From Zwartia panacis (lineage in GTDB: Bacteria > Pseudomonadota > Gammaproteobacteria > Burkholderiales > Burkholderiaceae_B), in assembly GCF_030410395.1 (NCBI RefSeq), contig NZ_JAUHHF010000011.1, positions 1-64,000 on the forward strand: a stretch of DNA of 64,000 nucleotides, in the 5' to 3' direction. A program made the translations under genes and the position numbers. The notes below the pieces were generated by a model. That model was not told the origin of the DNA and did not search any database. It worked only from the letters and a program-made list of their open reading frames with translations. This document shows, one piece after another, positions 4,893 to 34,167 of the stretch. The number at the start of each line of letters is the position of its first letter. Position 1 is the stretch's first letter.

Positions 4893-5531
4893 ATGGTAGA
4901 GACAATGCCGACATTGCCGTTATGGGTTGATGTCACTGCGATGGCGACCACGGCGATCTACGGTGCCGCGACAGCCCGCAGCAGGAATGTGCCTGTGTCT
5001 GGTACTTTATTCGCGGGTATTTTGGGCGGCGCGGCTGGCGGTATCGTTCGCGATCTGTTGCTTGGCCTTGAGCCTGTCGCGATTACCGGACCCTATTACT
5101 TTCCCTGGATTTTATTGGCGACTGTTTTCGGCGCATTTTTCTTTTACAAATTTATTTCGCAAAAAGTCCCTTTCCTCGTTCTCAAGGGTGTCGCGATCGG
5201 CTTGTTGATTTCCATTGGCTGTCAAAAGGCGCTGATGCACGATGTGCCGTTTGTCTCGATCATTCTGTGTGGCGTTTTGACTGCGACAGTCGGCGGGATG
5301 GCGATCGATACCTTGACGCGTCACCGAGCAGCCGTCTTTAGTCAGGCGCATTGGTTTGCGACCGCACTTATCATTGGCAGCCTCGTTTTTTATGGTCTGA
5401 CGATGACCACTAATTTTTACCTCGCGACTGCGGGTGCGACACTGACCGCTGCCGTACTGTATGTCACCAGCGTTCTTCGCAACTGGCCATCTCCTATGTG
5501 GCCAAAAGAAGATACCGATATGTCTGCCTGA
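4893..5531 (+). CDS. TRIC-family channel (UPF0126 / YadS-YicG group)
   Basis: The 212-residue protein has about seven membrane helices arranged as two TRIC repeats. Repeat 1 has an intact GG-x-x-R-D motif (GGIVRDLLLG). In repeat 2 the same site reads GGMAID, so the conserved Arg is replaced by Ile while the Asp is kept. Eukaryotic and prokaryotic TRIC proteins are trimeric monovalent-cation channels, and some bacterial relatives have been assigned glycine transport. It is followed 23 bases later by the double nitrilase gene, probably in one operon, which suggests a coupled substrate or ion. The second-repeat change may alter gating or selectivity. Confidence 0.8.
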   Translation: MVETMPTLPLWVDVTAMATTAIYGAATARSRNVPVSGTLFAGILGGAAGGIVRDLLLGLEPVAITGPYYFPWILLATVFGAFFFYKFISQKVPFLVLKGVAIGLLISIGCQKALMHDVPFVSIILCGVLTATVGGMAIDTLTRHRAAVFSQAHWFATALIIGSLVFYGLTMTTNFYLATAGATLTAAVLYVTSVLRNWPSPMWPKEDTDMSA

Positions 5532-20109: not shown

Positions 20110-21096
20110 ATGAGCGCAGTATTGGTAATTCATGGTGGCGCAGGAGCGATCAGTCGCGCCGCCATGACGACGGATAAAGAGCGTGAATATCATGCCGCCC
20201 TGAAAGAGATTTTGTTGACGGGTCAGGCTGTGTTAGCGCAGGGTGGTTCGGCACTTGACGCGGTGACCGCCGCGGTCGTTGGCTTGGAGGATTGTCCCCT
20301 GTTCAACGCCGGACGCGGGGCGGTCTTTACGAGCGAAGGCACGCACGAACTAGATGCGTCGATCATGGATGGTGCGACCCTCAAGACTGGTGCCATCGCC
20401 AATGTCCATCACGTCCGTAATCCTGTTCGCGCCGCACGCAAAGTCATGGAAGTGAGCAAACATGTATTTTTTGTGGGTGAAGGCGCAGAGCGATTCGCCC
20501 GCGAGCATGGTCTCGAGATGGTTGAGCGCTCTTATTTTTCAACGCCTGAGCGCTACGAACAGTTGTTACGTGTTCAGCGCGAAAATCCTGAAGCCGCCGT
20601 GCTTGATCATGATGGCCAGACAATGGTCGCGCGGCAAATTGCTGCGCCTGCACATCCACTGGACATGGACAAAAAGTTTGGTACGGTCGGAGCGGTCGCG
20701 CTTGATCTGCACGGTAATCTTGCGGCGGCGACATCGACCGGAGGCATTACCAATAAACAAGTTGGAAGAGTTGGCGATGCACCCATCATCGGGGCAGGAT
20801 GCTATGCGAGTAATCAAACATGCGCGGTTTCCACCACCGGTACGGGTGAAATGTACATACGCAAGGTAGCAGCTTACGATATCGCAGCCAGGATGCGATA
20901 TGCGGGCTCTTCTTTGGAGCAAGCGGCCCATGCTGTGATGTTCGAGGAGCTGCCATCGATCGGCGGGAAAGGCGGCTTGATCGCGGTCGATTCTCAGGGA
21001 AATATTGTCTTGCCTTTCAATACGGGCGGGATGTATCGCGGTTTTGCGCGGGTCGCGCAAACGCCTGTCACCGCCATTTATCCTGATAGCCAGTGA
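20110..21096 (+). CDS. iaaA: Isoaspartyl peptidase / plant-type L-asparaginase
   Basis: The protein has 328 residues from the ATG at 20110 (an upstream in-frame extension to 20026 is not protein-like). It is an Ntn-hydrolase that self-cleaves before a Thr: the [12 protein letters not shown] motif places the nucleophile at Thr192, with the VIHGGAGA start and STGGITNK segment of the family. It cleaves beta-aspartyl dipeptides and asparagine. Its last codons overlap the GTG start of gsiA (GTGA), the same iaaA-gsiABCD order as in Escherichia coli, so its products or substrates probably enter through that importer. Confidence 0.92.
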
Positions 21097-22976
21097 CCCT
21101 GCACAATCAACCCGAAAAAAGTGTTCTTGAGGTCAATGATCTCAGCGTGCGCTTCTCGACCTCCGAACGTGTGGTGGATGCTGTCCGGCATCTCTCATTT
21201 CATGTGGATCGAGGTGAAACTTTAGCGATTGTGGGCGAGTCAGGTTCTGGAAAGTCCGTGACTTCCCTGGCGCTTATGCGCCTGGTCGAGCACGGCGGTG
21301 GAAAAATCATCGATGGAGAAATGCGTTTACGCAAACGCAATGGAGAGGTGATTGATCTTAGGAGAGCTGATGCATCCATGATGCGCTCTGTTCGCGGTGC
21401 TGACATGGCGATGATTTTTCAGGAGCCCATGACATCGCTCAATCCAGTCTTTACGGCCGGAGAACAAATCGCCGAGTCCATTCGCGTCCATCAGGGTAGT
21501 TCAGCTGCAGCGGCTCGTGCGGAAACGCTTCGTTTGCTCGAACAAGTTCGTATCCCTGAAGCCCGCGCAGTCATGGGCCGTTACCCGCATCAGCTTTCAG
21601 GGGGCATGCGTCAGCGCGTGATGATCGCGATGGCGCTGGCGTGTAAGCCAGCACTTCTGATCGCCGATGAGCCCACGACAGCTTTGGACGTGACGATTCA
21701 GGCGCAGATCCTTCAGCTGATTCGTGAGCTACAACACGAAATGCACATGGGGGTGATCTTTATCACCCACGATATGGGTGTCGTGGCCGAAGTCGCCGAT
21801 CGTGTGTTGGTCATGTATCGTGGAGAAAAAGTAGAAGAAGGTGCGGCAGTGCAGGTGTTTGGTGCCCCCAGGCATCGCTACACGCAAGCACTTCTCTCCG
21901 CGGTTCCACAACTGGGATCCATGCATGATACCGACGTTCCGGCTCATTTTGCATTGACCCTGATGGAAGATGCGCCGAAAGCAGAGCCAAGGGTCAACGC
22001 GTCATCGTGCAAGTCGATCAACGCTTTGCCCTATCGTACTCAATCCCCGATCTTGAAAGTCCAGAATCTTGTGACGCGATTCGATGTGCGTTCAGGAATC
22101 CTCAATCGTGTTCGTCGTAAAGTACACGCCGTCGAGCAGGTTAGTTTCGATCTGTATCCGGGTGAAACGCTCGCGCTCGTTGGCGAATCAGGTTGTGGAA
22201 AATCTACGCTCGGTCGATCACTCCTTCGTCTTGTGGACGCTCAGTCCGGAACGATAGAGTTCGATGGTTCGGATGTAGTCTCTCTTAAACATTCTGCTCT
22301 TCAAGCATTAAGACGAAATATTCAATTTGTTTTTCAGGATCCTTTCGCTTCGCTCGATCCCAGGCTGACGGTTGGATTTTCGATCATGGAACCGTTATTG
22401 GTCCATGGCATCGCGACGCATGAACAAGCCCGTCAGCGAGTTTCCGATCTTTTGCAGCGTGTAGGGCTCGCACCTGAAATGGCCGAGCGATATCCTCACG
22501 AGTTTTCCGGCGGTCAGCGCCAGAGAATTTGCATCGCGCGCGCGTTGGCGCTTAATCCCAAAGTCGTGATTTCCGACGAGTCTGTTTCAGCGCTGGATGT
22601 TTCAATTCAAGCGCAGATCATTAATCTTTTGATCGATTTACAACAAGAGCTCGGCGTTGCATTTTTATTTATTTCGCACGATATGGCTGTGGTCGAGCGT
22701 ATCAGTCACCGCGTTGCAGTCATGTACCTAGGACAGATCGTTGAGATCGGTCCGCGCCGCGCGATTTTCCAAAATCCTCAGCATCCCTACACCCGCAAAC
22801 TGATGGCTGCCGTCCCGATCGCTGATCCGACACGTAGACATTTGTCCCGCGAGTTGCTGTCAGACGAAGTGCCCAGTCCGATCAGACTGTTGCACGATGA
22901 GCCAGTCGTTGAACCTCTGGTGTGTGTGGGACCGGATCATTACGTTGCCCGACATAAAGTTGGCGGTCTCTACTAA
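21093..22976 (+). CDS. gsiA: Double-domain peptide/glutathione ABC transporter ATPase
   Basis: The 627-residue protein has two complete ATP-binding cassettes (about 8-260 and 325-600). Walker A sites are GESGSGKS and GESGCGKS, signature motifs LSGGMRQR and FSGGQRQR. Walker B is IADEPT in the first and VISDES in the second, where Pro is replaced by Ser. Oligopeptide-type C-terminal motifs follow each ([19 protein letters not shown]). It energises the GsiC/GsiD permease. The start is a GTG overlapping the iaaA stop. Confidence 0.92.
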
Positions 22977-23051
22977 AGGGTTGCCAGGCTTTATTTAAAT
23001 GTTTGCAGTAAATGGTTGCAGTTAATTTATGTGGTCTATCAGGAGATTGTG

Positions 23052-24602
23052 ATGGCGTTTAAAAAATTTGCGGTGCGCTCACTGATTGGTGCGACGATGA
23101 CTGTGGGTGCGCTGTTCGTATCGCCCACCTTTGCTGCCAAGGATGTGACGTTTGCGGTGTCTCTCGCACTAGAAACCCTGGATCCTTACAATACAAACAG
23201 CACGTTGAACCAGGCTGCCGGAAAGGCTTATTACGAAGGTCTTTACGAGTTTGATAAAGATCTGAAAATGCAACCTAAGCTCGCAACGGAATACAGCGTG
23301 AGCCCGGATGGTCTGCAATACACGTTCAAACTGCGTCCCGGTGTGAAATTTCACGACGGCACAGACTTCAATGCCGACGCTGTAAAAGCTACGATCGATC
23401 GCGTTTCGAATCCTGAAAATAAACTCGCTCGTTACACGCAATTCAATCGCGTGGCTAAAACGGAAGTCGTTGATCCACTGACAGTACGCATTACGCTTAA
23501 AGAGCCATTTTCAGCTTTTATCAATGCGATGGCTCATCCTTCGGCCATGATGATTTCACCGACTGCTTTGGCGAAATATGGCAAGGACATCGGAATGAAT
23601 CCTGTGGGTACAGGTCCTTTCAAGTTGCTTGAGTGGAAACCTGCCGAGTATCTGCGCGTCACAAAATTTGATGGATACTGGCAGAAGGGTTTGCCAAAAA
23701 TTGACACGCTGACGTTTAGATTTGTCACCGATAACAATACACGTGCCGCGGTGATGCAAACTGGAGAGGCACAATTTGCTTACCCGATTCCATACGAGCA
23801 AATCGGCGTGCTGGGAAAAAACGATAAATTGACCGTGGTTGATGACAAAACATCCATCATGGCGCGTTATGTCTCAATGAATACGCGCGTCAAGCCGTTC
23901 GATGACCCGCGTGTCAGGCAGGCAATCAATTACGCGATCAACAAGCAAGCGCTGGCGAAGGTTGCTTACGCGGGCTTTGCGACTCCGATCGATGGCGTGG
24001 TGCCGCAAGGTGTCGATTTCGCGCACAAGATTGGCGCCTGGCCGTACGATCCTAAAAAAGCAAAAGAGCTGTTGGCGCAAGCTGGATATCCCAATGGTTT
24101 CGAGACAACGTTATGGTCTGCTTATAACGACGGGACATCTGTTAAAGCGGTCCAGTTTCTGCAGCAACAACTCAATCAAGTCGGCATCAAGGCAAGCATT
24201 GAAGTGCTCGAGCCCGGTCAACGTGTTCAACGCGTGAATCAGGTCAAATCTCCCGATGATGCGAAGGTTCGACTTTATTATGCGGGTTGGTCTTCATCGA
24301 CAGGCGAAGCCGATTGGGCGCTGCGTCCATTACTGACAACTCCAGCGCAGCCGCCCGTGATGAACAATACGGCTTATTACTCGAATCCTAAGGTTGATGC
24401 AGCAGTCATGAAGGCATTGACAACTAGCAATCGTGACGAAAAAGCCGGGTTGTACAAGGAAGCACAGGAAGTCATCTGGAAGGATGCACCCTGGGCCTTT
24501 TTGATCACCGCCAATAACGTTTCTGTTCGTTCCAAGAATCTCTCAGGTGTCTATGTTCAACCGGATACTTCGTTCTGGTACGGTGATATTGATTTGAAAT
24601 AG
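23052..24602 (+). CDS. gsiB: Periplasmic peptide-binding protein of the Gsi/Dpp family
   Basis: The 516-residue family 5 binding protein has a signal peptide ending near FVSPTFAA and the family signature [18 protein letters not shown] with [24 protein letters not shown] at 23041 supports the ATG at 23052 rather than an upstream in-frame start. It delivers glutathione or small peptides to GsiCD. In this operon with isoaspartyl, P1 and D-aminopeptidases the ligand may be an unusual dipeptide rather than glutathione (inference). Confidence 0.9.
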
Positions 24603-24615
24603 GTATTTAAGTCCG

Positions 24616-25536
24616 ATGCTTTCGTATATTGCTCGTCGTTTGCTTGGCATGATCCCCACCTTGTTGATCGTGGTGGTGATCGTGTTCTTGTTCGTGCATA
24701 TTCTCCCGGGAGATCCGGCCCGGCTTGTGGCCGGATCTGACGCAGACGAGGCGACGATCAATTTAATCCGCAAGGACTTGGGTCTCGATTTGCCTTTACC
24801 TCAGCAGTTTTTGCGTTATGTCGAGGATCTGTCACAAGGCAATTTGGGTCATTCTTTACGGACCAAGCGACCTGTTACCCAGGAAATATCCGAACGTTTC
24901 ATGCCGACATTATGGCTCACTGTCACAAGCATGGCCTGGTCGGTATTGTTTGGGATGGGGATTGGTATCTGTTCAGCTGTCTGGCGCAATCGTTGGCCCG
25001 ACCGCTTGGGAATGACGCTCGCGGTTTCAGGAATTTCTTTTCCCGCGTTTGCACTGGGAATGATCCTGATGCAGATTTTCTCGGTCCAGTTTGGTTGGTT
25101 ACCCACTGTGGGCGCGGATTCCTGGAAGCACTACATTTTGCCATCGATTACGCTGGGCGCAGCTGTCGCAGCGGTGATGGCGCGCTTTACCCGTGCATCA
25201 TTTGTCGAAGTCATTCAAGAAGATTTTGTCCGCACTGCGCGCGCGAAGGGGTTGACTGAAACCAGTGTGGTCTTTAAGCACACGCTGCGCAATGCACTCA
25301 TACCAGTTGTGACCATGATGGGTTTGCAGTTTGGGTTTTTGCTGGGCGGGTCGATCGTGGTGGAAACAGTCTTTAACTGGCCTGGTTTAGGACGATTACT
25401 GGTGGACTCTGTCAATCAGCGTGATTATCCTGTGATTCAGGGTCTGGTCTTGATGTTTTCGATGGAGTTCATCTTGATCAATCTGCTGGTTGACGTGCTG
25501 TATGGCGCGATCAATCCCAGCATTCGGTATAAATAG
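24616..25536 (+). CDS. gsiC: Peptide ABC transporter permease
   Basis: The 306-residue permease has the DppB/GsiC pattern: an N-terminal helix ([19 protein letters not shown]) followed by [11 protein letters not shown], five further helices and the EAA loop [12 protein letters not shown] that contacts the ATPase. It pairs with GsiD, seven bases downstream, in the cytoplasmic membrane. The spacing to gsiB is 13 bases, so it is in the same transcript. Confidence 0.92.
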
Positions 25537-25543
25537 GCTACGT

Positions 25544-26419
25544 ATGCAATCACAATCGTCGCCCTTGAAAGTGCGTACGCCAGTCTCGGAATTCTTACGC
25601 AAGTTCATCAAACAACGCCTGGCTGTATATGCGGGTGTTTTCGTCATCTTTTTGATTGTTGCTGCGATCGCGGCGCCTTGGCTTGTCCCCTTTGATCCCG
25701 AGAACTATTTTGATTACGAGGCGCTCAATGATGGCCCCTCGATGAAGCACTGGTTTGGTGTAGATTCCTTGGGGCGGGATATTTTCAGTCGCGTATTGAT
25801 GGGGGCTCGCATCTCACTTGCGGCCGGTTTGATATCAGTCGCAATCGGCGCGGTCGTGGGGACTTTCATGGGATTGATGGCTGGCTATTACCAGGGTTGG
25901 TGGGAACGCTTCACCATGCGTATTTCGGATGTGTTATTGGCATTTCCCGGAATGTTGCTTGCGATCGGAGTGGTGGCCGTTCTGGGTTCAAGTATGGTCA
26001 ATGTGGTTGTCGCGGTTGCCGTCTTTAGTGTCCCGGCATTTGCGCGTTTGGTGCGCGGCAATACGCTTGCCATCAAGCAGATGACATATATTGAGGCGGT
26101 ACGAAGTATCGGGGCGTCTAATTCCACGATTATTTTCCGTCATATTCTGCCGGGAACGATTTCACCCATCATGGTGTATGGCACCATGAGAATCGGGACT
26201 TCCATCATTACAGCAGCCAGCTTATCTTTCCTTGGAATGGGCGCGCGTCCTCCAACGCCGGAATGGGGAGCGATGCTCAACGAGGCGCGCTCGGATATGG
26301 TGATCGCGCCACATGTCGCGATTTTCCCGGCCCTCGCAATTTTTCTGACAGTACTTGCTTTTAATTTGTTAGGTGACGGTTTGCGCGATGCGCTAGATCC
26401 AAAGATTGATCAAAAATGA
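25544..26419 (+). CDS. gsiD: Peptide ABC transporter permease
   Basis: The permease has about 291 residues from the ATG at 25544; a longer frame from 25490 overlaps gsiC and is not needed. It has the DppC/GsiD features: N-terminal cytoplasmic part, first helix, [21 protein letters not shown] and the EAA loop [12 protein letters not shown]. It forms the membrane pore with GsiC. Its stop overlaps the ATG of the P1 peptidase gene (ATGA), tying import to peptide cleavage. Confidence 0.92.
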
Positions 26420-27456
26420 CAGTATCAACTCCTTGTCCCTGGCGTGCAGGTCGACTTCCATCTGGCGCGTTGGATACGATATGTGATGTGCCTGGCGTCA
26501 CGGTGGGGCACGCGACACTTGATGACCTTGCCATACAAACAGGTGTCACTGTGCTGCGAGCACACTCCGGCTCTCACTATGTGCATAAAGTACCTGCCGC
26601 AGCCACTGTCATTAATGGTTTTGGTAAATCAGTGGGATTGATGCAGCTTGACGAGCTCGGTGTGCTTGAAACTCCGATCGCTTTGACAAATACATTTAGC
26701 GTGCCAGCAGTCGCACAGGCGCAAATCGCTCAGGCTATTCAATTGCACTCAGAAATTGGACGCGCCTGGCCAACGGTCAATCCTCTTGTCTTTGAATGCA
26801 ATGATGGATATTTAAACGATATTCAAGCCATGCGCGTGTCTGCCAATGATTATCAACGTGCGTATACCGCGACGGATCAGATTTTTGAACAAGGTGCGGT
26901 CGGCGCAGGTCGGGGAATGTCTTGCTTTGGCTTTAAAGGCGGTATTGGCTCGGCATCGCGTTTAGCGACAATTGATTCGGTTACCTACACTGTGGGCGCA
27001 TTGGTTTTATCCAATTTTGGTAAACGGGAAAATTTAAGAGTGCTGGGTCAGTCCGTGGGACTGCAACTGTCAGGTTCGGGATCATCGATCATGCAGCCAC
27101 AGTCTGAAAAAGGGTCGATTATCATGCTACTGGCCACGGATGCGCCAGTCGATGCCAGACAGTTGCGACGATTGTCTGCCAGGGCCGCAGTCGGTTTGGC
27201 GCGCACGGGCTCTTATTTTGGTCACGGTAGTGGCGATATTGCCCTGGCATTTTCGACCGCTTACACGATTCCCGCGTTATCCGTTGAACCAATGCCCTCT
27301 GTTGCATTTCTTCATGAAACGCGATTAGAGTCTTTATTTGAGGCCGTTGCCGACGCAACCGAGCAGGCAATTCTTTCTTCGCTTTGGTATGCTGAGTCTG
27401 TGACGGGTCGATCGGATCATCGCCGCGAATCTCTTCGTACTGTTTTGCCGGGTTGA
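26416..27456 (+). CDS. P1 family aminopeptidase (DmpA/BapA type)
   Basis: The 346-residue protein matches the self-processing DmpA family: an N-terminal [13 protein letters not shown] segment, a mid GAVGAGRGM motif and the predicted processing site Gly233-Ser234 in [14 protein letters not shown], where Ser becomes the N-terminal nucleophile of the small subunit. DmpA removes D- or L-residues from peptide N-termini and BapA cleaves beta-alanyl peptides. No signal peptide is seen, so it should act in the cytoplasm on peptides brought in by GsiABCD. The ATG overlaps the gsiD stop. Confidence 0.88.
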
Positions 27457-27487
27457 TCTGGGACCCCCTTAACTGCTGGATGCAATC

Positions 27488-28303
27488 ATGAAAATTCTGA
27501 TCTCCGTTGATATTGAGGGTGTAGCGGGTGTTTTCAGTCTTGAACAAACCCGCGCCGGCAACCCCGAGTATGAACGGGCTCGCAGACTGATGACTGAAGA
27601 GGCCAACGCGGCGATTCGAGGTGCTTTCGCTGGTGGTGCGTCAGAAGTCCTTGTGAATGATTCGCATGGCCATTTCCGTAATTTGTTACCTGATTTGCTC
27701 GACAAACGTGCCAAAGCCGTTCAGGGTAAACCTCGCTATCTTGGCATGATGTCGGGGCTCGAACAAGGATGTCAGGCTGTTTTGATGATTGGGTATCATT
27801 CGCGGGCACAAGGCCGGGGCATACTGGCGCATACGATCAATAGCTTTGCGTTTGCCAAGGTTCAAGTTAACGGAAAAGAGTTAGGGGAGGCGGGATTGTA
27901 TGGCGCGCTCGCGGGCGAGTTGGGCGTTCCTGTCCTGATGGGATCAGGGGATCAAATTTTTATTGAGGAAAATCTGCCTAATTTTCCTGATGCTGTGTGG
28001 GCTCAGACAAAAATAGCCTACGGTCACTCAAGTGGCGTCTCCATGTCACCTGAGGAATCGCGCGCCCTGATTGAAGATTGCGCAAAACGCGCAGTTCAAA
28101 GGACAGCGCCTCGGCCTTTTGTCATGACTGCGCCAATTGCTTGTCAGCTCACGACTCAAAGTCCGGCCATTGCGGATTTATTTTGCACCTTACCCATCGT
28201 TCGGCGCGTAGATGGCGTCAATCTTGAATTTTCCAGTTCTACTGTTCAAGACCTGATTCGAATTTTGAATAGTTTGGCTGCTATGTCATTTATGTTGCGT
28301 TGA
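27488..28303 (+). CDS. dppA: M55 D-aminopeptidase (DppA type)
   Basis: The 271-residue protein carries the M55 zinc ligands at positions nearly identical to Bacillus subtilis DppA: Asp8 and Glu10 (SVDIEG), His60 (NDSHGH), His104 (GYHSRA) and Glu134 (GEAGLYG). DppA removes D-alanine and similar residues from D-peptides. Following a peptide importer, an isoaspartyl peptidase and a P1 peptidase, it suggests use of racemised, isomerised or cell-wall-derived peptides. It lies 31 bases after the P1 gene. Confidence 0.88.
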   Translation: MKILISVDIEGVAGVFSLEQTRAGNPEYERARRLMTEEANAAIRGAFAGGASEVLVNDSHGHFRNLLPDLLDKRAKAVQGKPRYLGMMSGLEQGCQAVLMIGYHSRAQGRGILAHTINSFAFAKVQVNGKELGEAGLYGALAGELGVPVLMGSGDQIFIEENLPNFPDAVWAQTKIAYGHSSGVSMSPEESRALIEDCAKRAVQRTAPRPFVMTAPIACQLTTQSPAIADLFCTLPIVRRVDGVNLEFSSSTVQDLIRILNSLAAMSFMLR

Positions 28304-28359
28304 TTTTCGGCTTGCCAGGGTCAGTCGAGTCGCTGTTCACATCTAAGCAAAGGATTTGA

Positions 28360-30111
28360 ATGTTGATGCGTCCATCATCGAACAGTTGGCTAAGCGCCTT
28401 GATCAGTATGTTGATAGCCTTGTTTTTTTCGGCGGGTGCCATTGCGAATGCGTCCGAAAATCCATCGGTGAGCCCAAAAGAAAACGGCAAAAAAATCACC
28501 AAATTAAGGCTTCAACTCCACAGAGATCATCAGGCGCAGTTTGCCGGATTTTACGTGGCACAGTCCAGAAATTACTTTTCGGAAGACGGTCTCGAAGTTG
28601 AAATCATTCCGGGAGGCCCCGGCATCAACCCTATTACAGAGATTCAAGAGGGCAGGGCCGATATCGCAGTGACTTGGTTGAGCAATGCATGGCGACATTC
28701 CAAGCCAGCACAGTCCGTGACGAATATTGCCCAAATCTTTATCAATAGCTCCTTATTGATTATCTGCCGCTCGAGTGCGGGGATTTATGCGCCGAGGGAT
28801 GTGATCGGCAAGAAAGTCGGTGTTTGGAATCTGGGCGATGAGTTGGTGGTCGAAGAGTGGATGCGCCGCATTAAGGTGCCAAAAGATCAAGTGGAATTTA
28901 TCGAGCAACGCCCCGGAGGAATGGATCTGATCGAGGGCAAGGTGGCCTGCTCGACCGCGATGGACTACAACGAATATTGGCAAATCATTAATGCAGGAAT
29001 TGATCCTTCGGATCTTATCGTCATCGCGGATAAAACGACTGTCCCGCATGTTGAAGATGGGTTGTACGTTTTGACAGACCGCCTGGGATCAGAACCATTT
29101 CGCGATGCCCTGGTCCGTTTCCTGCATGCGACGCGGAAAGGTTGGGATCAGGCGAACTTTTCTCCCACGTTGGCGATCGAAACCGTCACCAGAATCAAAC
29201 CCGGGCTTAATCGTGAGCATCAGCGACACATGCTGGAAAATGTGTTGAATGATATTCACTTCAATAAGGAGCTGTTCGGGTTTTTCAATCTGAGCGATTA
29301 CAACGATGCGGTGACAAAAACTCTTAAAAATGGTCAGACAAGCCTCGAGTCTTCAACTCTATGGACGCACAAAATATGGAATAGTTTGCGGGAGTTGGAT
29401 GGAGTCATGCCTCCAATCACTGCAGCTACAAAACATTATGTTTCCACCGTTTTCCATTCCAGATATTTTGGGCTGTTCTTCATGATTGGCATATTGACTT
29501 TCGCATTGTCAGGCGTACTCGAGGCCATCAATCGAGGATATGACCTGTGGGGCAGACTGGTGCTAGCCTTTATTTCGGGTCTGGGAGGTGGAGTGATGCG
29601 AGATATCTTAATCGGCGGGGATCGCTATCCGTTGGCCTTTACAAAGAACATCACGCTACTAAGTGGCATTCTGCTGATTGTTTTGATTTCAGTCATTGTG
29701 ACAATATTCAAGCGCGATTTGCACCATAGCAAGACCTTCAAGAAGGTCAAACTATTCGCTGATATTGTCGGTTTTGCGGTGCTGGCTACTGCTGGCGCCA
29801 TGATTGCGATCATATCGAATCTTCATTGGCTCTGGGCACCGATTTGTGCTGCGCTGTCTTGTGCGGGAGGGGGGATGTTGCGAGATATTGTGCTCAACAA
29901 CGAACCAGCGACATTCAAAGGCGTGATTTATGAGGAAATCGCGGTGATTGGTGCAGTTATTTTTGTATTTGGATTAATGATTTTTGCTAATCCTCTGGAG
30001 CATAGCGCCGTCCCTGTTTATTGGAGCATTGCCGCGTCACTTGGCCTCATCATAGTATTGCGCATACTCATCGCTCGCTACAACATCAAATATCCCAAAA
30101 TATTGATGTGA
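28360..30111 (+). CDS. Fusion of NMT1/THI5-like periplasmic binding domain with a TRIC channel domain
   Basis: The 583-residue protein joins two families. Residues 11-30 form a signal or first membrane helix. Residues 46-345 form a type II periplasmic binding domain of the NMT1/SsuA/ThiY kind (FAGFYVAQSRNYFSEDGLEVEI, then DIAVTWLSNAW and GKKVGVWNLGDE). Residues 370-575 are a complete TRIC domain of about seven helices with both repeats intact (GGGVMRD at 409-415, GGGMLRD at 503-509). AAGGAT six bases before the ATG supports the start, and no stop or shift lies between the halves. I infer a binding-domain-gated channel. The ligand is unknown; THI5-type domains bind pyrimidines, taurine, nitrate-like or aromatic ligands. 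It follows dppA by 56 bases and may share its transcript. Confidence 0.88.
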   Translation: MLMRPSSNSWLSALISMLIALFFSAGAIANASENPSVSPKENGKKITKLRLQLHRDHQAQFAGFYVAQSRNYFSEDGLEVEIIPGGPGINPITEIQEGRADIAVTWLSNAWRHSKPAQSVTNIAQIFINSSLLIICRSSAGIYAPRDVIGKKVGVWNLGDELVVEEWMRRIKVPKDQVEFIEQRPGGMDLIEGKVACSTAMDYNEYWQIINAGIDPSDLIVIADKTTVPHVEDGLYVLTDRLGSEPFRDALVRFLHATRKGWDQANFSPTLAIETVTRIKPGLNREHQRHMLENVLNDIHFNKELFGFFNLSDYNDAVTKTLKNGQTSLESSTLWTHKIWNSLRELDGVMPPITAATKHYVSTVFHSRYFGLFFMIGILTFALSGVLEAINRGYDLWGRLVLAFISGLGGGVMRDILIGGDRYPLAFTKNITLLSGILLIVLISVIVTIFKRDLHHSKTFKKVKLFADIVGFAVLATAGAMIAIISNLHWLWAPICAALSCAGGGMLRDIVLNNEPATFKGVIYEEIAVIGAVIFVFGLMIFANPLEHSAVPVYWSIAASLGLIIVLRILIARYNIKYPKILM

Positions 30112-30112
30112 T

Positions 30113-30451
30113 TTAGCGCGAGATCGACTCGTCATCAAATCGGAGTGCTCGTTCTTTTAAAGAGCTGCAGATGAAAAGATAAGCCGTCATTGAAATCAGC
30201 AGCTGAAAGGGGAGCAATGCAACAAGCATGATGAATCCCGTGGCCATGAAACTGCCGTAGGACTCATCCGTGGGCGCCGATAAAAGAAAGCCAATCATCG
30301 TCAGTGCGGATAGCAGCGGTCCACTCGAAGTCAGCAAAATCGTCCAGCGCCAAAAATAGGGTGGTGAATAAGGGCGCGTAGTAGTCACTGGAAGCCAGCT
30401 GAACCATGCGACAAAGCCCAAGTAGGCAACGATATAAAAGGCGCTATCCAA
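30113..30451 (-). CDS. Small hypothetical membrane protein
   Basis: The 112-residue product has three predicted membrane helices (about 4-20, 38-58 and 68-92), with a conserved-looking TTTRPYSPPYFWRW loop and a charged C-terminus. I do not recognise a family. It converges with the binding-domain/TRIC fusion gene, with one base between the stops, and stands alone on the minus strand. The membrane pattern and absence of a better gene on the other strand support it as coding. Confidence 0.5.
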   Translation of the reverse strand: MDSAFYIVAYLGFVAWFSWLPVTTTRPYSPPYFWRWTILLTSSGPLLSALTMIGFLLSAPTDESYGSFMATGFIMLVALLPFQLLISMTAYLFICSSLKERALRFDDESISR

Positions 30452-30742
30452 AATGTTGGAAATTCTTAGTAAATGGAGGGATTAATCGGCTTTGAAACAT
30501 GTCATAAATACAGGATGAGTGTAGCTGAGGCGATGTCAGGAATGAGAAGACCCCCTATGAGTTATGGGCACTCCAGCCTATCTGTTCTGGTAGGTTTAGA
30601 CAGCCCCTTTTAGTTAGTGGGAGTCATTGTCCGGCGTGAAGTGGCGCGGGTAGACTCGACGATAGCTAACTGTCGGCTAGTCGGCGGATCATGTGGGGCT
30701 GAATTGAGTGCAAATCAAAGTATTAAAAAAAGATCAATTGGT
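30452..30742. other. Intergenic region before a cyclase gene
   Basis: About 290 bases separate the small membrane-protein gene from the preferred ATG of the second cyclase gene. An in-frame GTG at 30617 could lengthen the cyclase by 42 residues, but that stretch does not look protein-like. I see no clear promoter, terminator or riboswitch. Confidence 0.4.
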
Positions 30743-32548
30743 ATGCCCTACTACGTTGGCGCAACATTTATTGTTGTGCTGATTACCTTGTTTGCGGGTT
30801 TGATCCTCTGGCAAGAAGCCAAACAGAGGCAACAGCAATCACAGATGATGATGCAAAACGCGACGACTCTGTTGTCACATCACATCGAAGGTATTTTTAA
30901 TGAAGCCGACACGCTTCTTCAGGCTGTCTCATTTCACTACCGAGATCAGCTTTTAATGGAAAAATTTAATCCCAAACGGTTTAATGATTATTTACAGCTG
31001 GCTTTATCTTGGGCCCCTGAGTTCAGCAACCTCGGTTTTCTTGATGCCAAAGGGATTTATCGTTTCGGGATTGATCAGGCGCAACCGATTGATTTGTCTG
31101 AGCGCGAATATTTCACTCTTCTACGAGACAAGCCGTCTGGATCCGCTGCGAATGGAATGATTTTTTCAGGACCAATTTTTACGAAATTGAGCCAAAGATG
31201 GGCGCTGGTATTGGCGCGAAGAGTAGATCATCCTGATGGCAGTTTTGCCGGTGTGCTGTTTGTCCGCTGGGATATCGATCGCTTAACTACCCTGTTGGAG
31301 TCCATCCATATCGGGCAGAAGGGAACGATTGAGTTGCGAACGAGCGATATGGTTCAGGTAAGTCGTTACCCTTCCATCGATCCTCCTGAGCTAGGACCCG
31401 GTAACAAAAGAGTCCCGGCGCATCTGAGTCGCATGCTGCAGATATCCCCCGAGGGTGGCTCTTATCGGGCAATCTCTGCCCTGGATCAAATTGAAAGGCA
31501 CTACACCTACCTTAAGGTTGGCGAATATCCTTTTTTGATTTCTGCAGGCTTACAAGCTGGGTATAGCTTTGAAAACTGGAGTGTCAATACAAAACTCGTA
31601 TTACTTTTGAGCGCATTGATGATATTGCTGACGGTGGCTGGAGCCAGACGCATGTACCGGCAGTCGCTGAGGCGGATTCAACAACAGCTTAATAGCTATG
31701 CCGTGCGCATTTTGACGGCTTCGCCGGTTGCGATGATGATGCTGGATTCAAATGGTCAGATTACCCATGCCAATCCCGCGGCAAAAAGATTGTTTGGCTA
31801 CCCCGGCGACTTGCTGATAGGTACTGCTGTGGTTGCGCTTCATCCTGCGAGCAGTCAACTGAGTCAGGCCCAGAGACTCAAGCAGATCGATCAAGCTAGC
31901 GAGTTGATTACCGAGGCTGAATATGTCAGGCTCGACGGCTCCCCGTTTAGTGCTTTGCAGTCACTGGCGGCACTACCTGATATGGATGGAAACGTTAATC
32001 ATTACATTGAAACAGTCGTTGATATTACCGATCTCAAGCTGGCGCAGGAACGTTTGAAAAAACAGGCTGAAACAGACAAGTTAACCGGGTTGCTGAACCG
32101 GCACTCTGGTGATCATGTCCTCACAGAGGCTGCCAGAATTGCTGAAAACACCGGCACGGCATTTTCGGTCATTATGTGTGACATTGATCACTTCAAGCGG
32201 GTGAACGACGTTTACGGTCATCCCGAAGGTGACCGAGTTTTGGTTAACGTGGCAAACATACTCAGGGATGCGGTGCGCGCCGGCGATCGCTGTATTCGCT
32301 GGGGAGGGGAGGAATTTCTGATTGTGTTGCCAGGATGTCCCTTGCCTGTCGCAACCAGTTTGGCGAAAGGGTTGTGCCTGCTGATTGCAGAATCAGACAA
32401 TGAAAAAGTCGGTCCGGTCACGATGTCCTTTGGTGTAGCCCAATGGGTTCAACATGAATCCGTCAACGAACTCATCGAGCGCGTTGATCGCGCTTTGTAT
32501 GAAGCCAAAAACTCAGGTCGTAATCGAGTCGTCATATCCGCATGTTGA
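30743..32548 (+). CDS. Membrane diguanylate cyclase with Cache-PAS-GGEEF architecture
   Basis: From the ATG at 30743 the protein has 601 residues: a membrane helix (about 4-24), a periplasmic Cache-like sensor (about 35-275), a second helix (about 283-304), a PAS domain (about 320-430) and a GGDEF-family domain with motif GGEEF at 521-525. The inhibitory RxxD site (RAGD) lies five residues before it, so synthesis of cyclic di-GMP with feedback inhibition is predicted. The upstream GTG at 30617 would add residues without a membrane or domain function. No neighbour indicates the signal. Confidence 0.88.
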   Translation: MPYYVGATFIVVLITLFAGLILWQEAKQRQQQSQMMMQNATTLLSHHIEGIFNEADTLLQAVSFHYRDQLLMEKFNPKRFNDYLQLALSWAPEFSNLGFLDAKGIYRFGIDQAQPIDLSEREYFTLLRDKPSGSAANGMIFSGPIFTKLSQRWALVLARRVDHPDGSFAGVLFVRWDIDRLTTLLESIHIGQKGTIELRTSDMVQVSRYPSIDPPELGPGNKRVPAHLSRMLQISPEGGSYRAISALDQIERHYTYLKVGEYPFLISAGLQAGYSFENWSVNTKLVLLLSALMILLTVAGARRMYRQSLRRIQQQLNSYAVRILTASPVAMMMLDSNGQITHANPAAKRLFGYPGDLLIGTAVVALHPASSQLSQAQRLKQIDQASELITEAEYVRLDGSPFSALQSLAALPDMDGNVNHYIETVVDITDLKLAQERLKKQAETDKLTGLLNRHSGDHVLTEAARIAENTGTAFSVIMCDIDHFKRVNDVYGHPEGDRVLVNVANILRDAVRAGDRCIRWGGEEFLIVLPGCPLPVATSLAKGLCLLIAESDNEKVGPVTMSFGVAQWVQHESVNELIERVDRALYEAKNSGRNRVVISAC

Positions 32549-32585
32549 GATATGTTGGCACCGCCCAGAATGGGAAAGCCATGCA

Positions 32586-32614
32586 TTGACAAGAGTAGGT
32601 GATTCTGTTGTCAT
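32586..32614 (+). promoter_or_regulatory. Possible sigma70-type promoter for fumC
   Basis: TTGACA at 32586-32591 is followed after 17 bases by TGTCAT (32609-32614), a four-of-six match to the -10 box. It lies 87 bases before fumC. Weak prediction from sequence alone. Confidence 0.3.
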
Positions 32615-32634
32615 GCAGCAAATTATTTAAAAGT

Positions 32635-32673
32635 ACATCGTTTGTAGTACCTAAATACCACTATTAACGATGT
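32635..32673. promoter_or_regulatory. Inverted repeat in the fumC leader
   Basis: ACATCGTT (32635-32642) and AACGATGT (32666-32673) form a perfect 8-bp inverted repeat separated by 23 bases, just before the fumC ribosome site (AAGGA near 32689). It could be an operator or a leader hairpin. No factor can be named. Confidence 0.35.
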
Positions 32674-32700
32674 GGGTACTTATCTTCTAAGGATGTCCGA

Positions 32701-34167
32701 ATGACCACCGAATCCGCGCCAAAAATCCTCGATTTACCAATTGGAATTTCCGCAACAGGCTTGCGTCAGGAATTCGACAGTATCGGTCAGGTTCAAGTGC
32801 CTGCCGATCATTATTGGGGCGCACAAACGCAACGTAGCTTGATCCACTTCAACATTGGCCATGACAAAATGCCCAAGGAGGTTTATCACGCTTATGGTTA
32901 CGTCAAGAAAGCTGCGGCGATCGTGAATACCCAAGCTGGCCGCTTACCTGCTTGGAAGGGTCAGTTGATCCAAAAGGTCGCTGACGAGGTCATTACAGGC
33001 AAGCTTGATGCAGAGTTTCCGTTGTATGTCTGGCAAACCGGATCGGGTACGCAGTCCAACATGAACGTCAATGAGGTGATCTCCAACCGTTGTATTCAGC
33101 TGGTTGGCGGTACTCTGGGGTCTCAGGAGCCCGTGCACCCGAATGATCACGTGAATATGGGCCAGTCGAGTAACGATACATTTCCGACCGCGATGCATAT
33201 CGCCGCCTACAAAATGGCGACGGAAAAAACCATTCCCGCGCTGAAGCGTTTGCGTGATGCGCTGGATGCGAAATCAAAGCAGTGGGCCAATATCGTCAAG
33301 ATCGGACGTACGCACCTTGAAGATGCGACTCCTTTGACGGTCGGTCAAGAGTGGTCTGGTTATGTCGGTGCCTTGAACGATGCGATCGCGGACGTCGAGT
33401 ATGCGACACAGGGATTGTTACAAGTCGCGATGGGTGGCACAGCAGTCGGAACTGGTTTGAATTCGCCCGTTGGCTTCGGTGATGCCGTCGCCGCAGAGTT
33501 GTCCAAGCTGACAGGTTTTGCCATTAAAACCGCTGACAACAAGTTCACTGCTCAGGGAACCTTGGATCGCATGGTGCGGGCGCACGCCGCTCTCAAGGCT
33601 GCCGCTGTGTCCTTATTTAAGATCGCCAACGATATGCGTTGGCTCGGCTCAGGCCCACGCACCGGTCTGATGGAAATGACTTTCCCATCCAACGAGCCTG
33701 GTTCTTCTATCATGCCCGGCAAGGTGAATCCTACGCAAGCTGAAGCTATGCTCATGGTCTGTATTCAGATCATGGGTTCGGACGTTGCTGTGCAGATGGG
33801 CGGTGCCGAGGGCAATTTTGAGCTCAATGCTTTCCGTCCGATCATTATCAGCAACTACTTGCACTCAGCTTTGATCATGGCCGATATGTCGGATCATTTC
33901 CGTGAGTACATGATTGAGGGCGCGGTGGTCAACGAGGCGCAGCTCAAAAATAACATCGACAACTCAGTCATGATGGTGACAGCGTTGTCGCCTGTGATTG
34001 GATACGATAAGGCCTCGTCGGTTGCGCACTACGCGATTGATCACAACACTACACTCAAGGCTGCGGCACTTGCCTGCGGTGTTGACGAGGCGTTGTACGA
34101 CCGCGTTGTCGTGCCGATCAATATGACAAAACCTGGTTCTGCTGACATTCCCGCTAAGAAGGCCTGA
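32701..34167 (+). CDS. fumC: Class II fumarate hydratase
   Basis: The 488-residue protein is a class II fumarase, slightly longer than the usual 460 because of about 20 extra N-terminal residues before EFDSIGQVQVPADHYWGAQTQ. The catalytic-loop signature GSSIMPGKVNPTQ is intact, as are GSGTQSNMNVNEV and GQSSNDTFPTAMH (active-site His and neighbours). It converts fumarate and malate in the citric acid cycle without an iron-sulfur cluster. The aquaporin gene begins two bases after its stop, an unusual partnership. Confidence 0.95.
   Translation: MTTESAPKILDLPIGISATGLRQEFDSIGQVQVPADHYWGAQTQRSLIHFNIGHDKMPKEVYHAYGYVKKAAAIVNTQAGRLPAWKGQLIQKVADEVITGKLDAEFPLYVWQTGSGTQSNMNVNEVISNRCIQLVGGTLGSQEPVHPNDHVNMGQSSNDTFPTAMHIAAYKMATEKTIPALKRLRDALDAKSKQWANIVKIGRTHLEDATPLTVGQEWSGYVGALNDAIADVEYATQGLLQVAMGGTAVGTGLNSPVGFGDAVAAELSKLTGFAIKTADNKFTAQGTLDRMVRAHAALKAAAVSLFKIANDMRWLGSGPRTGLMEMTFPSNEPGSSIMPGKVNPTQAEAMLMVCIQIMGSDVAVQMGGAEGNFELNAFRPIIISNYLHSALIMADMSDHFREYMIEGAVVNEAQLKNNIDNSVMMVTALSPVIGYDKASSVAHYAIDHNTTLKAAALACGVDEALYDRVVVPINMTKPGSADIPAKKA

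Follow-up and report, generated by a model that had tools for sequence, protein, structure and literature searches.

Does a single bacterial protein carry both a periplasmic solute-binding domain and a complete TRIC channel, and what would the one do for the other? The question is raised by a gene at positions 28360-30111 of a 64,000-nucleotide stretch of Zwartia panacis DNA (contig NZ_JAUHHF010000011.1, positions 1 to 64,000), which we refer to as the window. The original prediction proposed that this gene joins an NMT1/THI5-like domain to a TRIC domain and encodes a ligand-gated or ligand-fed channel. To the first part of the question the answer is yes: the gene encodes one conserved protein in which a short linker connects two complete domains, an NMT1/THI5 binding domain and TRIC. 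As to the second part, "ligand-gated" and "ligand-fed" are two distinct mechanisms, neither of them proven. Our tentative preference is for a ligand-regulated TRIC pore, GluR0-like in its logic and built on an unrelated pore; its gating, ligand and permeant are what we infer.

Architecture of the Fusion Protein

The features of the gene, including the equivalents of residues in the TRIC channel of Sulfolobus solfataricus (SsTRIC), are as follows.

28350-28354, + strand: AAGGA, probable ribosome-binding site (read from the sequence)
28360-30111, + strand: NMT1-TRIC fusion gene, 583 amino acids (aa) (open reading frame, Pfam)
28360-28449, + strand: probable signal peptide, residues 1-30 (hydropathy and low conservation)
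28492-29394, + strand: NMT1/THI5-type periplasmic binding domain, residues 45-345 (Pfam 59-269; fold 45-345)
29395-29466, + strand: short linker, residues 346-369, toward the first transmembrane helix (TM1) (mostly helix in the model, 352-365)
29467-30108, + strand: TRIC domain, residues 370-583, with seven predicted membrane helices (Pfam, phmmer, hydropathy)
29587-29604, + strand: first GG-x-x-R-D motif, residues 410-415, kink of M2 (sequence, alignment)
29761-29763, + strand: D468, aligned with Asp97 of SsTRIC, a gate residue (alignment; role from PMC5401562)
29869-29886, + strand: second GG-x-x-R-D motif, residues 504-509, kink of M5, with R508 and D509 equivalent to Arg137 and Asp138 of SsTRIC (sequence, alignment)
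29929-29931, + strand: Y524, aligned with Tyr153 of SsTRIC, a residue of the plug (alignment; role from PMC5401562)

The reading frame encoding the 583 residues is uninterrupted, and the window sequence contains neither a stop nor a frameshift in it. Pfam profile searches matched NMT1/THI5 (NMT1, PF09084) over residues 59-269 (E 3.5e-27) and, in the same frame, two stretches of PF03458 (TRIC; E 2.8e-27), while NCBIfam added only below-cut-off matches. By phmmer, residues 372-580 matched solved TRIC channels (5wtr, E 1.2e-18), and the N-terminal part matched two NMT1-type binding proteins. The N-terminal half has both the NMT1 profile and the type II binding-protein fold. Hydropathy revealed seven hydrophobic helices after residue 370, comprising two three-helix repeats and a seventh helix; together with the two PF03458 stretches and the 5wtr match, they answer the doubt whether the C-terminal part has the TRIC fold. 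The original prediction was right about the two domains, their limits and the GG-x-x-R-D motifs, and also in stating that the fusion includes no ATPase. By hydropathy, the putative signal peptide has a hydrophobic segment at residues 11-29 followed by an ANA-S cleavage-like site.

Homologues and Selection

Is the join peculiar to this one genome? Among 268 genomes of the family, two from one other genus (G127 and G125) encode full-length NMT1-TRIC proteins with 52-53% identity to the window protein (over residues 20-582 and 16-581). One further full-length homologue was found in another family (G368, E 2.7e-145) among 399 genomes drawn from the order, and none except the window's own among 398 drawn from the phylum. 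The NMT1-TRIC proteins thus come from four genomes of three genera, have the same domain order, and all four match both NMT1 and PF03458 in Pfam. A survey of this kind had been called for by the original prediction, which treated the fusion as a single case. The same join does occur elsewhere; the single-case view was too narrow, as a version with another binding domain (SBP_bac_3, described below) is commoner in the genus.

These homologues bear directly on the explanation that the protein is a chance or artifactual join of two genes. NMT1-TRIC is found in only 1 of the 32 genomes of the window's genus, as such an accident might be; however, the join is also present in three other genomes, and an assembly artifact or a chance join is rejected for that reason, its remaining probability being negligible. 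No relative was found in a first scan of genome contigs, with a single protein as query; in the second, with a three-row alignment as query, the best 80 of 576 confirmed stretches were considered, and the matches listed include one fusion (L097), which is on the same contig as G125. Viral and plasmid origins were also considered and rejected: none of 60 pattern matches in viral contigs was a relative, and in the matches listed from 103 plasmid records no single place matched as much as 80% of the query.

In the four pairs compared, the proportion of synonymous differences (pS) is 0.71-0.84 in both domains, which is near saturation, and that of nonsynonymous differences (pN) is 0.14-0.45. Both domains are under purifying selection, with nonsynonymous divergence well below synonymous divergence. 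Identity over residues 332-369, which include the end of the binding domain and the linker, is 26-32% between the window protein and the others and 71% between G125 and G127. On these comparisons, selection conserves the fused protein but leaves its linker loose in sequence.

The TRIC Half and Its Gate

If the protein is a channel, its pore should resemble that of known TRICs. In SsTRIC, the stretch between M5 and M6 is a plug that closes the pore at its cytoplasmic side and binds to Asp97, Arg137 and Asp138; Tyr153, within this plug, is a gate (PMC5401562). The seven TRIC helices of the window protein are flanked by 12 lysine and arginine residues in the predicted inner loops and tail compared to 2 in the outer loops. 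This distribution suggests that the N terminus is outside, which would place the binding domain in the periplasm; the predicted topology agrees with the published cytoplasmic plug. Aligned to SsTRIC, the window protein retains D468, R508, D509 and Y524 as well as the F16 equivalent. Its plug has P516 and Y524 at the SsTRIC spacing and lacks the acidic residue and the Ala, and D468 is followed by IVGF.

Among the NMT1 fusions, those of the window, G125 and G127 retain all four gate residues. The fourth, G368 (L193:7402-9165, - strand), has Asn, Leu, Asp and Phe for Asp97, Arg137, Asp138 and Tyr153; with Asn, Leu and Phe at three of these positions, the same plug contacts are impossible there, and this protein may serve as an anchor or have another kind of pore. 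The loss of three of the four checked residues in G368 favors another explanation, namely that TRIC conducts little and instead anchors a binding protein that concentrates ligand or serves another transporter. We consider this sensor or anchor role improbable, as the gate residues persist in the other three fusions and in none of the four pairs does the TRIC half exceed the NMT1 half in nonsynonymous change.

In the model of the whole protein the TRIC half is poor, being only two sequences deep, and nothing is drawn from the relative placing of the halves for that reason; the model of TRIC alone is also of low quality.

The fusion is one of three TRIC proteins in the window's genome (54 contigs), the others being a protein of about 227 aa (C1) and one encoded at window positions 4893-5531 (+ strand). 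The latter is a stand-alone TRIC of 212 aa that is strongly diverged and lacks the equivalents of F16, D97, R137 and Y153; its 3' end overlaps a CN_hydrolase reading frame as listed from 5498.

A Second Family of Fused Binding Domains

TRIC is also joined to a second binding-domain family, SBP_bac_3, and this join recurs in related and distant bacteria. It is present in 6 of the 32 genomes of the genus (G005, G015, G016, G025, G030 and G031) and in the other genus that has NMT1-TRIC (G124 and G129, plus a G128 copy with an internal stop). With an alignment of seven SBP_bac_3-TRIC proteins as query, no full-length one was found in the 399 genomes of the order, and three of the 398 genomes of the phylum contained them (G788, G948 and G971). 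Two adjoin each other in G948, and G971 has two adjoining and a third, weaker one elsewhere. These adjoining pairs (L202/L211 in G948 and L201/L210 in G971, genomes of different families) could form heteromeric channels. The 14 SBP_bac_3-TRIC proteins used in the tree all match SBP_bac_3 and PF03458 above the cut-offs, the third G971 protein barely so for PF03458 (25.9 bits versus 23.5). Compared to the window fusion, they have the same arrangement of binding domain, linker (also short before TM1, by reading) and TRIC, possibly of the same TRIC lineage; they differ in the family of the binding domain, and a common origin is not proven. All four gate residues are found in 12 of the 14 (exceptions, L061 and L213).

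Do the two kinds of fusion share an ancestor? In a TRIC tree of 58 rows, the 18 fused rows (4 NMT1 and 14 SBP_bac_3) split from the 40 others with support 99/96, and each fused type forms one group (100/99 and 100/97); the rows are those retrieved by our searches, and a stand-alone TRIC that belongs in the fused group may have been missed. Partial frames and the stop-broken G128 copy had been dropped beforehand, and two badly aligned solo TRIC rows were left out of one comparison. The split persists (98/91) in a tree of 53 rows, from which, as from the approximately unbiased (AU) tests, five long rows were removed; bootstrap support for it is 98-99% over the two trees. In the AU tests, six rival groupings gave p values of 0.055-0.085. 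Separate origins are therefore not rejected, and a common origin of NMT1-TRIC and SBP_bac_3-TRIC is favored but not shown.

The Binding Domain and Its Putative Ligand

What might the binding domain recognize? The best solved relatives of the NMT1 half are titled formylaminopyrimidine-binding and thiamin-bound. Its free relatives (79 free loci listed) have 32-38% identity to it, and a pyrimidine-breakdown gene lies near 73 of the 80 loci listed, a raw count without a background control. Among the matches listed, the closest free relatives are binding proteins of pyrimidine-breakdown ATP-binding cassette (ABC) operons. An alignment of 2 fusions with 25 of the 34 listed free binding proteins has 48 invariant columns, which bear only indirectly on a pyrimidine-type ligand.

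Several free or differently joined relatives and possible breakdown genes were observed in passing. G125 has a free NMT1 protein (L087:1-2849, - strand; Pfam E 6.2e-38; 37% identity to the fusion), next to which are Cache/HAMP/SpoIIE phosphatase-like and STAS genes, with domains assigned by reading only. In L014 and L021, an N-terminal NMT1 domain is found on long frames that read like PAS sensors; Pfam confirms NMT1 in L014, and the rest is by reading. A cluster at L244 (G000:C53:120000-138500) encodes a dihydropyrimidinase, a CN-hydrolase-type amidase, an amino-acid-type binding protein and a PreA-like protein, and possibly serves hydantoin or pyrimidine breakdown.

Ligand-Regulated Pore or Transporter

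How would such a protein work? In the mechanism that we favor, a trimer would hold three periplasmic binding domains above three pores; glutamate receptors, by comparison, are tetramers. The ligand may be a compound resembling a pyrimidine, or one that arises when pyrimidines or hydantoins are broken down. Its binding would close the cleft and move the linker and TM1, and the moved TM1 would open (or close) a monovalent-cation pore behind the cytoplasmic plug, in which Y524 faces D468, R508 and D509. A nutrient would in this way trigger a K+ or membrane-potential response, with no need of an ATPase. Several points are consistent with this mechanism. First, the gate residues are mostly the same under NMT1 or SBP_bac_3, which fits one permeant and several ligands. 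Second, the linker is short and, in the model, mostly helical, as would suit mechanical coupling more than loose tethering. Third, glutamate receptors with GluR0 and the PBP-I-fused Cys-loop channels are precedents for joining a binding-protein domain to a channel.

Other points weigh against it. With a single covalent linker, closure of the cleft would be transmitted less directly than in glutamate receptors, which have several links, and the stretch at residues 332-369 is poorly conserved between the window protein and the others. In the pore, F104 of SsTRIC is Leu in the window protein, the full plug consensus PX5-7E(D/Q)XYA plus DA(T/S)XGL is absent (a consensus that is typical rather than defining, SsTRIC itself being a loose fit), and G368 has the substitutions described above. 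For the ligand, the count of dihydropyrimidinase genes near NMT1 loci has no background rate for other binding proteins, no fusion gene was seen in a pyrimidine operon (neighborhoods by reading and Pfam), and fusion-bearing G127 has no dihydropyrimidinase match in a genome that is 84% complete.

The main rival to gating is a transporter fed by its own binding protein. The fused domain would hand a solute to TRIC/UPF0126, which would carry it, giving a one-piece, ATP-free importer; the solute would resemble glycine, as beta-alanine or some other product of the breakdown does. This explanation is kept alive by the importance of UPF0126/TRIC genes for glycine use, as fitness data reported in a review indicate. 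PF03458 is now named Gly_transporter in Pfam, and free relatives of the NMT1 half adjoin ABC importer genes among the matches listed. However, fusions of the two binding-domain families have most gate residues in common, and the pore of SsTRIC narrows to 0.7-2.0 A at its constrictions, its recordings having been made with K+ and Na+ (PMC5401562). On balance we regard a fed transporter as rather unlikely. Bacterial TRIC/UPF0126 may act as a K+ channel or as a glycine transporter, and a TRIC with its own ligand-binding domain provides a natural handle on this question: if ions cross, the fusion is a ligand-gated channel with glutamate-receptor logic and an unrelated pore; if the ligand crosses, TRIC is a transporter. 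We know of no solute-coupling motif, and no search was aimed at one.

Relation to Known Systems

Each half of the protein belongs to a known family, and channels fused to binding domains are already known; the version with a TRIC pore was not found in a literature search. Compared to the solved prokaryotic TRICs (5wtr/5h35 from Sulfolobus solfataricus, 5h36 from Rhodobacter sphaeroides, 5wuc-5wue and 5wuf), the window fusion has the whole TRIC domain with two repeats, both GGxxRD kinks and the gate residues D97/R137/D138/Y153. It has Leu for F104 and lacks the full plug consensus, and the known channels are stand-alone proteins of about 210 residues (PMC5477506), whereas the fusion has a binding domain in front. 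The UPF0126 glycine transporters belong to the same Pfam family as the C-terminal half. Free NMT1 proteins of pyrimidine-breakdown ABC transporters (e.g., the Sinorhizobium meliloti pSymB hydA cluster) share the whole binding domain; they sit with ABC genes, while the window NMT1 domain is fused to TRIC and has no ABC partner.

Two kinds of channel offer analogies. GluR0 and the ionotropic glutamate receptors also join a periplasmic-binding-protein domain to a cation channel (PMC3483616). Their pore is K+-channel-like and, in the NMDA type, inserted into the binding domain (PMC549065), unlike TRIC, which follows a continuous, intact binding domain. Bacterial Cys-loop channels fused to PBP-I domains likewise combine a channel with a periplasmic binding domain, but they have a Cys-loop pore and a domain of another binding superfamily (PMC549065).

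Among the papers listed, a search of titles and abstracts found no fusion of a binding domain to TRIC, a result that does not show its absence from print; the word "fused" in PMC5477506 refers to bilayers rather than to a protein fusion. A broader proposal, possible but doubtful, is that these proteins are a second class of ligand-gated cation channel, independent of glutamate receptors, in which a TRIC trimer forms the pore and bears type II periplasmic binding domains. A single lineage of fused TRICs would then have kept its pore constant and exchanged its sensor, with at least two binding-domain families used (SBP_bac_3 and NMT1).

Genomic Context

The fusion gene starts 56 bp 3' of a peptide-use operon that encodes, by Pfam, an asparaginase, SBP_bac_5, an S58 peptidase and an M55 D-aminopeptidase and, by reading, an ABC ATPase and permeases. 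No forward promoter-like or terminator-like site was found in 27300-30700, which is weak evidence. The closeness of this peptide-uptake operon, with no such site between, favors the sensor or anchor role. However, the adjoining peptide ABC (21093-26419) already has its own SBP_bac_5, and the fusion has no ABC permease or ATPase partner of its own. By reading, the ABC beside the G127 fusion also has its own binding protein, and no ABC was seen alongside the G125 and G368 fusions.

No conserved operon partner was found by reading, and the neighborhoods of the window, G125/G127 and G368 differ; G125 and G127 both have an acyl-CoA dehydrogenase gene and an endonuclease/exonuclease/phosphatase-like gene nearby. 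Positions 26000-33000 gave no Rfam match. Downstream of the fusion gene, window positions 30617-32548 (+ strand) encode a PAS-GGDEF diguanylate cyclase with a dCache match below threshold.
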